Assembly: GCA_902785075.1 (NCBI GenBank)
Contig: CACZXN010000016.1
Coordinates: forward strand, 50,357 to 97,067
Direction: 5' to 3'
Source of the DNA: an uncultured Bacteroidales bacterium
GTDB lineage: Bacteria; Bacteroidota; Bacteroidia; Bacteroidales; Bacteroidaceae
Length of the DNA: 46,711 nucleotides
Both the position numbers and the translations under genes were made by a program. A model generated the notes under the pieces. The model was not told the origin of the DNA. It ran no database searches and saw only the letters and a program-made list of their open reading frames with translations. Below are positions 31,331 through 36,132 of this stretch, in pieces (the stretch's first letter is position 1; each line of letters starts with the position of its first letter).

Positions 31331-31482
31331 TTATTAGTGTTAAAAAAGGAGTTCTTGACGGAAATCAGCCCTTTAATCCATCATTGTCAGTTTATTGAAC
31401 ACTAAGTGCACACCTTATTATTTATTATACATCGTTTTTTTTATAACCCCTTGGGCTTTTTTTTGTTTCTCCTAAAGGAATT

Positions 31483-31549
31483 TTCTGTTGCAGGTCGTGC
31501 AACCTATGTTGCAGGTCGTGCAACGTACGTTGCACGACCTGCAACAGAA
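31483..31549. repeat. Three palindromic 17-bp units
   Basis: GTTGCAGGTCGTGCAAC occurs at 31487-31503 and 31508-31524, and its exact reverse complement at 31529-31545, with 4-bp spacers CTAT and GTAC. Each unit has GTTGCA/TGCAAC arms. The outer two units, with flanks, form a perfect 21-bp inverted repeat (31483-31503 with 31529-31549). Confidence 0.9.
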
Positions 31550-31753
31550 ATTACCCCTAAGGGAAAAAACATTTTCCCCTAGGGGCTGCAAAAAAAGAGT
31601 ACTGGCTTCACGATTCCGATGTAAGTAGTGAGTTTCCCATAACCACTAATGATGAATGACCCACTATTAACGCCCATTTCTTAACAACAAACGCACAAAA
31701 CAGCGTGAAAACAAACATTTTTCCATCAATTATTGCACTTTTCTTGCAAATTG

Positions 31754-31785
31754 TTTGGTCAAATCGATTATTAGCAATAATTTTG
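31754..31785 (+). promoter_or_regulatory. Promoter of the Phe/Tyr operon
   Basis: TTTG at 31754-31757, a 20-bp spacer and TAATTTTG at 31778-31785, an exact match to the Bacteroidetes consensus. The expected start point is near 31792, about 20 bases before the leader peptide ATG. Confidence 0.75.
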
Positions 31786-31811
31786 CAGCGTCAAAACAGA
31801 AAGACGATAGT

Positions 31812-31868
31812 ATGAATAGATTCTTTGCTGCATATTATTACTTCTACTTTTACTTTCAGAACAAGTAA
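31812..31868 (+). CDS. pheL: Phe/Tyr-rich leader peptide
   Basis: An 18-codon frame encoding MNRFFAAYYYFYFYFQNK, with five Phe and five Tyr codons between 31821 and 31856. It begins about 20 bases after the predicted transcription start and ends in TAA at 31866-31868. The base just after the stop begins the 5' arm of an antiterminator. Its position, composition and the operon that follows (enzymes for Phe and Tyr) match a classical ribosome-mediated attenuation leader. The peptide itself likely has no other function. The symbol is used by analogy with enteric pheL; there is no sequence homology. Confidence is high because composition, promoter, hairpins and gene content agree. Confidence 0.88.
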   Translation: MNRFFAAYYYFYFYFQNK

Positions 31869-31946
31869 GAGCGGGCAATCGTATGTGCAAAGATAGATTG
31901 AAAATGAATCATTGAAACAGTAAAGATAACAAATACGGTCCCGCTC
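31869..31946 (+). promoter_or_regulatory. Antiterminator of the Phe/Tyr attenuator
   Basis: GAGCGGG (31869-31875) pairs with CCCGCTC (31940-31946), and CGTAT (31880-31884) pairs with ATACG (31933-31937) across a small internal loop. The first arm begins directly after the leader stop codon, so a ribosome finishing the leader would cover it. The second arm is the 5' half of the terminator, so the two structures exclude each other. Confidence 0.8.
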
Positions 31947-31966
31947 CTAAAGAGTGGGACTTTTTT
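31938..31966 (+). terminator. Attenuator terminator before pheA
   Basis: GTCCCGCTC (31938-31946), loop CTAAA and GAGTGGGAC (31952-31960) form a 9-bp stem with one G-U pair, followed by six T (31961-31966). The pheA ATG begins at the next base. Confidence 0.88.
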
Positions 31967-32809
31967 ATGAACAGAGAGATGAAAAGAGTTGCTATACAAG
32001 GAGAGATAGGGTCGTTCCACGATATTGCGGCCCATCAGTATTTCGCAGGCGAACAGCTGCAGCTCATCTGCTGCCAAACCTTCGAACAGGTGTATGAGGC
32101 TATTGAGCAAGACCCTACGGTCATCGGAATGGCTGCTATCGAGAACACGATTGCGGGTTCGCTGCTACACAATTACGAACTGCTGCGCGACTCAGGCACT
32201 ACGGTAGTAGGCGAACACAAGTTGCACATCACTCACTGCATCTGCTGCTTGCCTGACGACTCGTGGGAAACCATTACTGAGGTACATTCGCATCCTGTGG
32301 CACTAATGCAGACGCGTAACTATCTGGCTCAGCATCCTAAGTTGCGTGTAGTAGAGGCCGACGATACTGCTGGAGCTGCTAAGATGATAGCAGAGGGACA
32401 GCATCGAGGTTGGGCAGCCATCTGTCATGCAGACGCAGCTCGTCTGTATGGTCTGAAAGTGCTGGAGGACGGCATCGAGGACAACAAGCACAACTTCACC
32501 CGATTCCTCGTATGCTCTACTCCTCAGAAGGCAGACTTGCTGCGACCGCTGGTCGAAGCAAACAAGTCGAGCATCGTATTCGCCCTTCCTCACGAGGAAG
32601 GTAGCCTCTCAGCCGTACTCGCTATCTTGTCGTTCTACAAAATCAACCTGACGAAGATACAATCGCTTCCTATCATCGGCCGCGAATGGGAATACCTGTT
32701 CTATGTGGATGTGACCTACAGCGACCTCACTCGCTATCGTCAGGCCATCGATGCCATCATTCCCCTCACGCGCGACCTGAAGATTTTAGGTGAATACAAG
32801 AAGATTTAG
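31967..32809 (+). CDS. pheA: Prephenate dehydratase
   Basis: A 280-residue prephenate dehydratase that converts prephenate to phenylpyruvate, the committed step to phenylalanine. The catalytic domain (1-185) has IENTIAGS and the hallmark NFTRF with T178, R179 and F180. A C-terminal ACT domain (about 197-275) is the expected Phe-binding site; its GALxxxL counterpart reads GSLSAVL, and the usual ESRP motif reads QSLP, so feedback control may differ. No chorismate mutase domain is attached; that activity sits on the DAHP synthase two genes later. The ATG at 31967 abuts the attenuator T-run and has no Shine-Dalgarno sequence; a second ATG at 31979 (MKRVAIQG) is possible. Confidence 0.92.
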   Translation: MNREMKRVAIQGEIGSFHDIAAHQYFAGEQLQLICCQTFEQVYEAIEQDPTVIGMAAIENTIAGSLLHNYELLRDSGTTVVGEHKLHITHCICCLPDDSWETITEVHSHPVALMQTRNYLAQHPKLRVVEADDTAGAAKMIAEGQHRGWAAICHADAARLYGLKVLEDGIEDNKHNFTRFLVCSTPQKADLLRPLVEANKSSIVFALPHEEGSLSAVLAILSFYKINLTKIQSLPIIGREWEYLFYVDVTYSDLTRYRQAIDAIIPLTRDLKILGEYKKI

Positions 32810-32861: not shown

Positions 32862-34046
32862 ATGGACTTCAAACCAGCAGACAGAATAAGTGCGGTAAGC
32901 GAATACTACTTTAGCCGCAAACTGAAGGAAGTGGCGAAACTCAACGCCGAAGGAAAGGACATCATCAGCCTTGCTATCGGTAGTCCTGATATGCCCCCTT
33001 CAGAAGCCACAATACAAACACTATGCGATAATGCAAAGAAAGCCGATGCACACGGCTACCAACCCACTGTGGGTATTCCAGAACTGAGAAAAGCGATGGC
33101 TCAGTTCTACAAGCGTTGGTACGGAGTAGAACTCGATCCAGCAACAGAAATCCAACCGCTTATCGGCAGCAAGGAGGGAATCCTACATGTTACCCTCGCA
33201 CTCTGCAACCCAGGCGACAAGGTGCTGGTTCCCAATCCTGGCTACCCCACCTATACTGCGCTAAGCAAGATTCTGGGACAGCAGATTGTAAACTACGACC
33301 TGCGTGAGGATAATGGGTGGCATCCCGACTTCGCCCAACTGGAACAGATGGATCTGGAGGGAGTAAAGCTCATGTGGACCAACTACCCTAATATGCCGAC
33401 TGGCGGACGGGCTACTCGTGAGCTATACGAGCAACTGGTGGACTTCGCCCGCAGACACCATATTATTATTGTGAACGACAATCCCTATTCGTTCATCCTC
33501 AACCGCGATGAGCACCTCAGCATCCTGCAAGTGCCTGGAGCAAAGGAGTGTTGCATCGAGTTCAACTCGATGTCGAAGAGCCACAACATGCCTGGATGGC
33601 GTGTAGGACTGCTTGCAACAAATGCGCAGTTCGTTCAATGGATTCTGCGTATCAAGTCGAACATCGACTCAGGAACCTTCCGTCCTCTCCAACTCGCTGC
33701 AGCACAGGCATACGAGAACTCGGACGATTGGCACACACAGGCGAACGTAGCCACCTACGCCTCTCGTCGCAAGATTGCAGAAGCCATCATGACGGAACTC
33801 GGTTGCAGCTTCGACCCCACACAGCAGGGTATGTTCCTTTGGGGAAAGATTCCCGACAGCATCGCAAATGTGGAGGATCTCACAGAGCGTGTACTACACG
33901 AGGCACGAGTGTTCATCACCCCAGGCTTCATCTTCGGCTCGAATGGCGAACGCTACATCCGTATCAGTCTCTGCGCCAAAGATGAGAAAATGCAGGAAGC
34001 ACTAAAGAGGATCAAGGAGACCCTCCCCCTGGCCCCCTCCCTTTAG
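32862..34046 (+). CDS. PLP-dependent aminotransferase (aromatic amino acid type)
   Basis: A 394-residue class I/II aminotransferase. The cofactor lysine is K239 in SMSKSHNMPGWR; NDNPYS (205-210) and YPNMPTGG give the other usual PLP contacts. In family terms it resembles LL-diaminopimelate/aromatic aminotransferases. Its place between pheA and the DAHP synthase gene makes transamination of phenylpyruvate and 4-hydroxyphenylpyruvate, the last step to Phe and Tyr, the likely role. The last nine codons (TLPLAPSL and the stop) come from a repeated GC-rich element, so the native C-terminus seems to have been replaced. It follows pheA by 52 bases. Role by context is strong, specificity is inferred. 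Confidence 0.85.
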   Translation: MDFKPADRISAVSEYYFSRKLKEVAKLNAEGKDIISLAIGSPDMPPSEATIQTLCDNAKKADAHGYQPTVGIPELRKAMAQFYKRWYGVELDPATEIQPLIGSKEGILHVTLALCNPGDKVLVPNPGYPTYTALSKILGQQIVNYDLREDNGWHPDFAQLEQMDLEGVKLMWTNYPNMPTGGRATRELYEQLVDFARRHHIIIVNDNPYSFILNRDEHLSILQVPGAKECCIEFNSMSKSHNMPGWRVGLLATNAQFVQWILRIKSNIDSGTFRPLQLAAAQAYENSDDWHTQANVATYASRRKIAEAIMTELGCSFDPTQQGMFLWGKIPDSIANVEDLTERVLHEARVFITPGFIFGSNGERYIRISLCAKDEKMQEALKRIKETLPLAPSL

Positions 34047-34156: not shown

Positions 34157-35212
34157 ATGGAACTTTTACCACTCAATTTTCCCAGCGACAATCCGCGCCC
34201 ATTCGTCATCGCAGGTCCATGTTCTGCAGAGACGGAGGAGCAAGTGATGAAAACAGCCAAAAGTCTGGCTAAGAAAGGATGCCACATGTTCCGTGCAGGA
34301 GTGTGGAAACCACGTACCAAACCAGGTGGATTCGAAGGAAACGGCGAGATTGCCCTCCCTTGGATGAAACAAGTGAAAGACGAGACAGGCATGCTGGTTG
34401 CTACAGAAGTAGCGACTCCTGAGCATGTAGAACTGGCGCTGAAATACGGGATCGACATCTTGTGGATTGGTGCTCGAACCACAGCCAACCCATTTGCCGT
34501 ACAGGCACTTGCTGATGCATTGCAAGGGGTGGACAATCCTGTCCTCGTGAAGAACCCTGTAAATCCCGACCTCGAACTGTGGATTGGTGCACTCGAACGT
34601 ATCAACAACGCAGGTGTGAAGCGAATGGGAGCCATTCATCGAGGATTCTCGAGCTACGATAAGAAAATCTATCGAAACCTGCCTATGTGGCAAATTCCTA
34701 TCGAACTACATCGTCGCATTCCCAACATACCGATCTGCTGCGATCCAAGCCACATCGGAGGACGTCGCGACTTGATTGCACCACTCTGTCAGCAAGCGCT
34801 CGACCTGGGTATGGATGGTCTGATTGTTGAGAGTCATTGCAACCCAGATGCTGCGTGGAGTGATGCAAGCCAGCAAGTCACACCCGACATCCTCGACTAC
34901 ATCCTCTCAATCCTCGTCATTCGCGAGAAAGTGGTAACCACAGAAAACATCATCGCCCTGCGTAAGCAGATTGACGAGATAGACGACAGCCTGATTGACC
35001 TGCTCGCCAAACGGATGCGCATCAGTCGCGAAATCGGTCAGTACAAGAAAGAGCACTCGATGACAATCGTGCAAACAAGCCGCTACAACGAGATTCTCGA
35101 GAAACGTGGCGCACAAGGTTCGCTGATGGGTATCGGAGCCGAGTGTATCAAGGAGATATTCGAAACCATTCACGAGGAGTCCGTCCGCCAGCAGGTAGAA
35201 GTAATGAAGTAA
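34157..35212 (+). CDS. Bifunctional DAHP synthase-chorismate mutase
   Basis: A 351-residue two-domain enzyme. Residues 1-260 are a type I-beta DAHP synthase (FVIAGPCSAET, GTRTTANPF-like IGARTTANPFAVQ, CDPSHIGG), which joins phosphoenolpyruvate and erythrose 4-phosphate at the entry of the shikimate pathway. Residues 265-351 are a type II (AroQ) chorismate mutase (LRKQIDEIDDSLIDLLAKRM), which makes prephenate. The order, synthase then mutase, matches Bacteroidetes fusions in which the mutase also serves as the regulatory domain, sensing prephenate or chorismate. It therefore controls both ends of the route that feeds PheA and TyrA. The start codon lies right after the first GC-rich element. 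Confidence 0.92.
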   Translation: MELLPLNFPSDNPRPFVIAGPCSAETEEQVMKTAKSLAKKGCHMFRAGVWKPRTKPGGFEGNGEIALPWMKQVKDETGMLVATEVATPEHVELALKYGIDILWIGARTTANPFAVQALADALQGVDNPVLVKNPVNPDLELWIGALERINNAGVKRMGAIHRGFSSYDKKIYRNLPMWQIPIELHRRIPNIPICCDPSHIGGRRDLIAPLCQQALDLGMDGLIVESHCNPDAAWSDASQQVTPDILDYILSILVIREKVVTTENIIALRKQIDEIDDSLIDLLAKRMRISREIGQYKKEHSMTIVQTSRYNEILEKRGAQGSLMGIGAECIKEIFETIHEESVRQQVEVMK

Positions 35213-35358: not shown

Positions 35359-36132
35359 ATGAAGATATTAATATTGGGAGCAGGTAAAATGGGGTCGTTC
35401 TTTATCGACCTGCTCAGCTTCGACCACGAAGTAGCCGTATACGATATCGACCCCAAGCGTCTGCGCTTCACCTACAACTGCCGACGCTTTACCTCGCTCG
35501 ACGAAATCGACGCATTCGCACCCGAACTCGTCATTAACGCGGTTTCATTGAAGCATACGCTCGACGTGTTCCGTCAAGTGATCCCTCATCTCACCAAGAG
35601 CTGCATCCTCAGCGACATCTCATCGGTGAAGACAGGATTCAAGGAGTTTTACGATGAAAGCGGATTCCACTATGTATCAACCCACCCTATGTTCGGACCA
35701 ACCTTCGCCAACCTCGGCCAACTCTCGAACGAGAACGCCATCATCATCAGCGAAGGCGACTTTATGGGACGTTGTTTCTTTAAGGAGTTATACTCACGTC
35801 TGGGGCTCCACATCTGCGAGTACACCTTCGACGAGCACGACCGCACAGTGGCTTACTCTCTCTCCATCCCGTTCATCTCTACCTTCGCCTTTGCTGCCGT
35901 GATGAAGCATCAGGACGCTCCTGGTACAACCTTCAAGCGCCACATGCTCATTGCTCAAGGTGTACTGAGCGAGGACGACACCCTCCTGCGTGAAATCCTC
36001 TTCAACCCCTACACCAAGGATCAAGTATCACAAATACGCGACGAGATGGCAGAACTAATCGATATCATTGACAAAAAAGATGAGGACCACATGCAAGCAT
36101 ACCTCACCAAGATTCGCGCAAACATCAAGTAG
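35359..36132 (+). CDS. tyrA: Prephenate dehydrogenase
   Basis: A 257-residue NAD(P)-dependent prephenate dehydrogenase, which makes 4-hydroxyphenylpyruvate for tyrosine. The Rossmann loop is GAGKMG (7-12), followed by YDIDPKRL for the cofactor ribose. The segment STHPMFGPTFAN carries the catalytic His (H111 region), and a helical C-terminal dimerisation domain completes the protein. No ACT domain is present, so feedback by Tyr may act elsewhere, for instance through the leader attenuator. It is the last gene of the operon and is followed by a strong hairpin. Start codon chosen directly after the second GC-rich element, with GGAGGGGG as ribosome-binding site. Confidence 0.9.
   Translation: MKILILGAGKMGSFFIDLLSFDHEVAVYDIDPKRLRFTYNCRRFTSLDEIDAFAPELVINAVSLKHTLDVFRQVIPHLTKSCILSDISSVKTGFKEFYDESGFHYVSTHPMFGPTFANLGQLSNENAIIISEGDFMGRCFFKELYSRLGLHICEYTFDEHDRTVAYSLSIPFISTFAFAAVMKHQDAPGTTFKRHMLIAQGVLSEDDTLLREILFNPYTKDQVSQIRDEMAELIDIIDKKDEDHMQAYLTKIRANIK

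Follow-up and report, generated by a model that had tools for sequence, protein, structure and literature searches.

A candidate leader-peptide attenuator with phenylalanine and tyrosine codons before the aromatic operon of a Prevotella relative, and its counterparts in other Bacteroidota

Transcription attenuation by a translated leader peptide is a known, textbook mechanism, of which the Phe/Tyr version analyzed here is without an RNA-family entry. Among the closest described likenesses is the pheA leader of enteric bacteria, where a Phe leader peptide, alternative hairpins and a terminator precede pheA. The leaders of thr, ilvGMEDA and ilvBN carry mixed codons, i.e., one leader answers to several amino acids of one operon, as in our locus but for other amino acids and in another phylum. 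The Bacteroid-trp RNA (RF01692) is a trp attenuator with Trp codons and, unlike the Phe/Tyr element considered here, is named for trp. Bacteroidota are prominent in the gut and the rumen, and a concrete candidate switch for synthesis of Phe and Tyr is of interest in a phylum whose control of amino acid synthesis has been little studied; a comparative survey of attenuation by Lopatovskaya et al. (2010) may contain predictions of relevance.

The thr, ilvGMEDA and ilvBN operons are listed in PMC1183508, and Bacteroid-trp is presented as a probable cis-regulatory RNA in Bacteroidetes (PMC2864571). Structured 5' elements without Rfam hits have been reported before pheA and hisG in Flavobacterium psychrophilum and Flavobacteriaceae, and leader-peptide attenuation before amino acid operons has been proposed for F. 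psychrophilum, in a section that concerns Flavobacteriaceae (PMC9723704). The pheA element of F. psychrophilum shares phylum and gene with ours and has no Rfam hit; compared by its description, since that section does not give leader sequence, codons or arms, it is probably of the same kind. The uORFC-13-1 motif before aroF in Acholeplasma, proposed to combine a Phe-codon uORF with a terminator (PMC8632094), likewise precedes an aromatic gene but belongs to another phylum, and the cited section refers to at least one Phe codon and does not mention Tyr. Short ORFs reminiscent of leader peptides have been described in 5' UTRs of B. thetaiotaomicron, according to the part of the article cited (PMC7366714). 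Among the matches listed in the open-access literature searched, none describes a leader peptide with Phe and Tyr codons in Bacteroidales, nor dual Phe/Tyr sensing, gene-content tracking or tandem modules in the phylum. The novelty claimed in a preliminary description of the locus, made from the sequence alone, nevertheless has to be narrowed, since 5' elements before pheA and hisG and attenuation have been reported for F. psychrophilum of the same phylum (PMC9723704) and a Bacteroidetes trp motif, RF01692, is present in Rfam.

The window, i.e., the whole stretch of DNA that was analyzed, comprises 46,711 nt (assembly GCA_902785075.1, contig CACZXN010000016.1, positions 50,357 to 97,067 of the forward strand); all positions refer to the window numbering, and the source organism is a Prevotella relative. 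We consider it highly probable that the region before pheA (Table 1) is a class I ribosome-mediated transcription attenuator of a phe-tyr operon that would sense the charging of tRNA-Phe and tRNA-Tyr together, and the same switch very probably works in many relatives across the phylum. The parts of the leader, their conservation, the co-variation of the 2:3 and 3:4 pairings (antiterminator and terminator) and a codon content that follows the genes form the basis of this reading, all of them taken from the sequences. We recognize class I attenuators by a short predicted ORF enriched in codons for those amino acids that the operon makes, an intrinsic terminator between leader and first gene, an antiterminator with one arm in common with the terminator and maintained by co-variation, and a 1:2 hairpin that includes the sensor codons; each of these is found here, the last as a predicted and conserved helix without compensatory changes. 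The preliminary description had proposed mutually exclusive antiterminator and terminator structures, leader-peptide attenuation before an aromatic operon and Phe and Tyr codons in the leader, all of which our sequence comparisons support; its 18-codon frame is confirmed, and the downstream genes are those of an operon making Phe and Tyr. The aligned MKKVAIQG start in relatives suggests that pheA begins at ATG 31979.

Table 1. Features of the leader region and the downstream genes in the window
Feature	Position	Strand	Basis or remark
Promoter, Bacteroidetes type, TTTG-N20-TAATTTTG	31754-31785	+	pattern match, presumed consensus
Leader ORF MNRFFAAYYYFYFYFQNK and TAA (31866-31868)	31812-31868	+	ATG 31812, 18 codons, 5 Phe and 5 Tyr
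Sensor run YYYFYFYF, eight consecutive Tyr/Phe codons	31833-31856	+	sequence
Arm 1 of 1:2 hairpin, CTTTTACTT, within the last sensor codons	31847-31855	+	predicted fold, kept in relatives
3' side of 1:2 hairpin, AAGTAAGAG	31863-31871	+	pair probabilities 0.85-1.0
Arm 2, antiterminator 5' arm GAGCGGG	31869-31875	+	sequence, co-variation
Antiterminator 5' extension ATCGTAT	31878-31884	+	fold, 7 further pairs with 31933-31939
Antiterminator 3' extension ATACGGT	31933-31939	+	fold
Arm 3 CCCGCTC, common to antiterminator and terminator	31940-31946	+	sequence, co-variation
Intrinsic terminator	31937-31966	+	stem 31937-31961, T tract 31961-31966 (six T)
pheA, prephenate dehydratase	31967-32809	+	likely start ATG 31979
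Class I/II aminotransferase gene	32862-34046	+	
DAHP synthase fused to chorismate mutase	34157-35212	+	
tyrA, prephenate dehydrogenase	35359-36132	+	

Among Rfam families, the best match in the window is a sub-threshold one to the enteric pheA leader RF01859 (Phe_leader) at 31815-31967, with 23.7 bits and an E value of 0.069; homology to this family cannot be claimed because the score is far below the gathering cut-off of 55 bits. Unlike the enteric leader, the window has Phe and Tyr codons together and an operon with tyrA and DAHP synthase. No match to RF01692 (gathering cut-off 49 bits) was found in the window or in G000; matches occur in 3 of 31 genomes, two of them over the cut-off and one in G004 of the window's genus. 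The Bacteroides sRNA family BTnc060 was rejected as the same element (13.8 bits compared with a threshold of 228.9, and 0 matches in the loci of 14 relatives), and no paper on it was found in the open-access literature searched. The alignments assembled here could seed an Rfam family.

Conservation was assessed with a rule that accepts any ORF 8 to 50 codons long in which 6 or more of 12 codons are Phe/Tyr and which is located within 420 nt of pheA. Of 135 Bacteroidota loci, 125 carry such a Phe/Tyr leader upstream of pheA, compared with 8/135 on the reverse strand and 35/2700 dinucleotide shuffles. The 135 upstream regions (106 inside the order and 29 outside) are a selection made up of 11 true pheA loci of the genus, the best 26 further loci and 40 regions chosen over genera among 268 genomes with a match in the family, the best-scoring 29 of 68 genomes with a match in the order and the best-scoring 29 of 128 in the phylum; L012-L014 (matches of 25-29% identity) and L295 (a weak partial match) were left out of the pheA counts. 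Outside the order a leader is present in 26 of the 29 best-scoring loci, three of the 26 lying outside the class. A second set of 80 loci from named organisms, picked by pheA similarity and partly overlapping the 135 (e.g., L110/L002 and L174/L006), has a leader in 79, including Xylanibacter ruminicola and Marseilla massiliensis; the named relatives are largely rumen Prevotella. Ten of the 135 loci have no leader by the rule: contig ends truncate L072 and L098, the leader of L107 starts at a GTG further upstream, pheA lies apart from other aromatic genes in L006, L090 and L096, and the remaining ones are L093, L215, L216 and L217.

The pairing partners of the preliminary description are all present, and its coordinates are correct throughout, GAGCGGG lying right behind the stop codon, CCCGCTC following after 64 further bases, and CGTAT (31880-31884) matching ATACG (31933-31937) as a second pairing. 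The antiterminator is longer than was seen at that time, the 7-bp arm match being continued by the 7-bp extension ATCGTAT/ATACGGT to 14 bp. The terminator with six T was found independently by a separate scan, which gave its stem 10 pairs, 6 of them G-C. Folded alone, antiterminator and terminator have free energies of -20.0 and -17.1 kcal/mol, respectively. When the arm-2 stretch is shuffled 5000 times at the mononucleotide level, 1.4% of the shuffles reach the 7-bp arm match, which is thus, as a single-sequence result, only moderately unusual; chance is ruled out because leader and arms are kept in relatives.

Among 133 leader ORFs, 120 have a terminator by a relaxed rule, an earlier stricter rule having missed 29 of 106 leaders; about ten of the 13 that were dropped resemble leaders of the same type. 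The 2:3 helix score over the 120 leaders has a median of 22, compared with 16.5 for arms exchanged among groups and 12 for shuffled arms, and exceeds the 99th percentile of shuffles in 64% of them. The arm cores change along with their partners across the phylum, for example GCCGGGACT/AGTCCCGGC in L200 and, with G.U pairs, GGGTGGGT/GCTCACCC in L103. With anchors set independently of pairing, 90 distinct group/triple combinations contain 30 double-change cells in 2:3, where shuffles average 8.4 and reach at most 16, and 56 in 3:4, where they average 15.0 and reach at most 27. Across 93 substitutions in arm 3, pairing is retained with arm 2 in 39, with arm 4 in 66 and with both in 33; the less strict maintenance of arm 2 is due in part to failure of the anchoring in distant groups, where the anchors are weak and spacing is therefore unreliable.

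A closer comparison used 42 aligned leaders chosen over genera from the 70 own-family leaders with a terminator, with alignment A2 left out of the counts. For 2:3, 91.5% of cells are paired and 24 are double-change cells (shuffle mean 9.4), and for 3:4 the corresponding values are 91.2% and 23 (shuffle mean 11.0), 0 of 500 shuffles being as high in either case. Two of five measures for 2:3 in these leaders are not above shuffles, namely pairs changed on both sides (94/500 shuffles as high) and pair types (500/500); the same measures for 3:4 give 19/500 and 35/500. The slid controls of the 2:3 test are biased because the structure came from one of the rows. The preliminary description had named loss of the leader frame or of stem complementarity in relatives as grounds for abandoning the proposal; the frame is conserved in the proportion of loci given above, and the complementarity is kept with co-variation in both 2:3 and 3:4.

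The preliminary description saw no 1:2 pause hairpin, and this part of it has to be withdrawn. The unconstrained fold pairs arm 1, in the last Phe/Tyr codons, with AAGTAAGAG in a predicted 9-bp hairpin that is kept in relatives and whose 3' side shares bases with the stop codon and, over three bases, with the beginning of arm 2. Of the 1:2 cells in the 42 leaders, 88.9% are paired, compared with 59-65% when the helix is slid, and compensatory changes amount to 1 cell compared with a shuffle mean of 0.9; the test used one helix register, and it understates the pairing in the window's genus because the helix there is shifted by one base from that register. The ends of the sensor runs are nearly invariant in relatives (TTT-TAC-TTT): the last sensor codon, where Phe, is TTT in 105/113, and the penultimate one, where Tyr, is TAC in 91/99, while at the sixth codon from the end the numbers are 44/64 for TTT and 24/68 for TAC. 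Among the 133 leaders, 91 have a helix no shorter than 7 bp (only 6 bp, e.g., in L034 of g5). Set against synonymous recodings, the helix surpasses their mean in 107 of the 133 but ranks among the top tenth for only 6. A synonymous-codon free-energy test gives a mean z of -0.58 over the 133 related leaders; within the genus of the window the effect is small (-0.26), and no such signal was found in g5 (+0.31) or g14 (+0.06). We read the predicted 1:2 hairpin as real but modest.

The position of the stop codon bears on how arm 2 would be masked. A stop codon that ends no more than 15 nt from the last Phe/Tyr codon is seen in 35 of the 120 leaders, and in 9 of 10 leaders of the genus, the window's included in both counts; in the other 85 of the 120 the frame continues into or through arm 2, which among the leaders is read in all three frames. 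The proposal that a ribosome halted at the stop codon covers arm 2 consequently fits the genus and some other leaders and does not extend to the 85 frames that enter or pass the arm. Since the stop position varies and arm 2 often lies within the frame, masking may proceed along two routes, via a ribosome at the stop (in this genus) or via one that moves through the arm while the 1:2 hairpin closes in its wake. The arm core lies 12-15 nt 3' of the last sensor codon in 55 of 90 leaders and, from the size of the ribosome footprint, should therefore stay clear of a ribosome stalled in the run. The strongest alternative is the three-segment version of the preliminary description, without a 1:2 hairpin, in which termination would come about only through a ribosome parked at the stop over arm 2. 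The stop directly 5' of arm 2 in the window, its position in the genus leaders and the absence of compensatory changes in the 1:2 helix agree with this version, which we nevertheless find unlikely in view of the 9-bp hairpin predicted and retained in relatives and the reading of arm 2 in so many leaders.

In the class I attenuator that we favor, the start site, the stalling, the read-through and the response to Phe and Tyr are what we infer from the parts. Transcription would start near 31790, as judged from the promoter, and a ribosome would begin the leader at 31812. When both amino acids are plentiful, the ribosome would traverse the Phe/Tyr run and occupy or pass arm 2 (in the window, by halting on the TAA just before it), the 1:2 hairpin could re-form behind it, and arm 3 would be free to pair with arm 4, so that RNA polymerase would stop at the T tract before pheA. 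When either tRNA is short, the ribosome would stall in the run, holding arm 1 open and leaving arm 2 free ahead; arm 2 would then capture arm 3, along the 14 bp that include the extension, before arm 4 emerges, and antitermination would carry transcription into pheA, the aminotransferase gene, the DAHP synthase-chorismate mutase gene and tyrA. When the complete leader is folded with codon 8, 11 or 15 occupied by a ribosome, the predicted equilibrium structure retains the terminator, and the antiterminator forms only with RNA ending at 31947-31950. The model consequently depends on timing, and the established race model of attenuation, in the section cited, likewise relies on timing (PMC1183508).

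The hairpin next to pheA might alternatively block the initiation of pheA translation instead of terminating transcription, with the ribosome on the leader controlling access to the pheA start. Its proximity to the gene would suit such a role, the T tract of the window directly abutting ATG 31967, 12 bases before the likely start, and the hairpin end being separated from the aligned pheA start by a median of 22 nt. We regard this as quite improbable: all 120 analyzed leaders have a T tract at the hairpin, although the search rule required it, and in 14 of the 120 the hairpin is over 60 nt away from the aligned start of pheA.

Leader codons were also compared with the downstream genes. Where pheA is linked to the aminotransferase gene, a leader is found in 156 of 161 loci, a count that includes overlapping named loci and leaves out the short L041-L080 (40 loci without downstream genes). 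All 156 leaders contain Tyr, its share of Phe and Tyr codons ranging from 0.25 to 0.67 with a mean of 0.51 and never being zero. Seven further loci, where DAHP synthase is present and no aminotransferase lies within reach, likewise have leaders with Tyr. We defined pheA as alone when about 1.5 kb of sequence behind it matched neither the aminotransferase nor the DAHP synthase or TyrA of the window, extended the test to stretches of 5-6 kb for G321, G331, G433 and G404, and located tyrA on another contig by PF02153 in these genomes (four tested of eleven). Eleven distinct loci are of this kind (G013, G321, G404 and eight genomes of G331's family). Three of them, from two lineages, have a leader, and all three runs are Phe-only: MTRFFTHFFFFFTQQ in G321, MRRNSFRFFFFFAFFFCNGRNGVSYLY in G331 and MKHDTFRFFFFFAFFFCNGRNGVSYSY in G602, the last two being close relatives whose leaders have two Tyr codons 3' of arm 2 and none in the run; a leader was not found in the other eight. 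Mixed leaders stand at the sixteen loci of G321's family in which aromatic genes are linked (for L291 in this comparison only a tyrA-like frame was seen, by eye). In G013, a leader with 6 Tyr and 3 Phe codons stands before an aminotransferase gene without pheA (L235). A leader resembling that of G013 occurs at L263 in G007, a genome that contains, in addition, a pheA-aminotransferase locus preceded by another leader (L005); departure of pheA from the operon is insecure in G007 (3% contamination) because of that locus. In G013, pheA itself (L006) appears by eye to lie apart, behind a trpA-like gene.

Dependence of the Tyr codons on a linked tyrA alone was considered and rejected, as Tyr codons persist in G344, G454, G531 and G508, where tyrA lies elsewhere or is unrecognized. 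These four genomes have DAHP synthase beside pheA, and we therefore confine the statement on codon content to lone pheA. With this restriction, codon content appears to track gene content, which supports dual Phe/Tyr sensing by the putative attenuator.

The same pattern bears on the suggestion that the peptide encoded by the short ORF functions in trans, the terminator being incidental. Leader peptides can act in trans elsewhere, as the part of the literature cited reports for peTrpL (PMC7298713). We consider this very improbable for the present ORF, whose Phe/Tyr richness is retained although its length and both ends vary, whose arm 2 is read in all three frames and whose Phe/Tyr balance follows the downstream genes. 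A tRNA-binding T-box or a ligand-binding riboswitch, which the position before an amino acid operon and the terminator might bring to mind, is rejected as having next to no probability, given 0 matches to the T-box and other Rfam riboswitch families at the gathering threshold in the window, no Rfam family at gathering score in the window or the loci of 14 relatives, and a Phe/Tyr ORF that it would leave unexplained.

Runs of six or seven Tyr without Phe precede a sodium:solute symporter gene (PF00474) in G010, G001 and G021, and a YHYYYY run does so in G627; T-tract hairpins are visible by eye behind the first three. These Tyr-only leaders, found in 4 of the best 30 symporter loci (L231:1477-1620, the same place as L297, and L298, L304 and L307), include MLFNISKKYYYYYYYRTLTVGL and MNINHTVNKYYYYYYRTTNVGL. 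Leader codons can thus predict the substrate of nearby genes, and here they predict that the symporter is a putative tyrosine importer under Tyr attenuation. The series of mixed, Phe-only and Tyr-only leaders amounts to a natural experiment on the retuning of an attenuator. A search for Phe/Tyr runs in 17 genomes of the genus matched a reversed control pattern about equally often, and because of this the genus-wide run counts are no evidence; among the run-search matches examined, which also comprised L231, L235 and L263, no leader was seen at L224 and L237.

Two complete tandem modules lie within 360 nt before a single pheA in L082, L085, L087 and L092, i.e., in 4 of 106 loci and in three families of the order Bacteroidales. 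Each module consists of an ATG, a Phe/Tyr run, arms 2-4 and a T tract, and the second has different arm sequences; L191, outside the order, may be a fifth and less clear case. A broader reading, in which our confidence is about evenly divided, is that the attenuator is ancestral in the Bacteroidota, being mixed before the joint operon, Phe-only before lone pheA, Tyr-only before the symporter (which would then be a tyrosine importer) and duplicated in tandem in several Bacteroidales families; outside the order this reading draws on the best-scoring 29 of the matched genomes. It would include a stop position that is free, since arm 2 is read in all three frames, and a distance from run to arm that is more constant than the stop position.

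The consensus promoter noted earlier upstream of the leader proves to be of the Bacteroidetes type, assigned by what we take to be the consensus for this phylum. Patterns of this type occur within 90 nt upstream of 61 of 133 leaders, compared with 8 of 2660 shuffles. An E. coli-type promoter for the leader was rejected, a scan giving 0 on the + strand. Around the upstream promoter box, TGTTTGGTC at 31752-31760 seems by eye to be kept in the genus beyond the presumed consensus, and an operator at this place is conceivable. Just 5' of the promoter, a palindromic intergenic repeat (31436-31596) has 78-nt arms that are 76% complementary and holds a perfect 40-nt palindrome (31507-31546). A 106-base query from this repeat gave 61 matches in its own genome, which correspond to fewer places because both strands of the palindrome are counted, and fewer matches than this in 6 of 16 other genomes of the genus.
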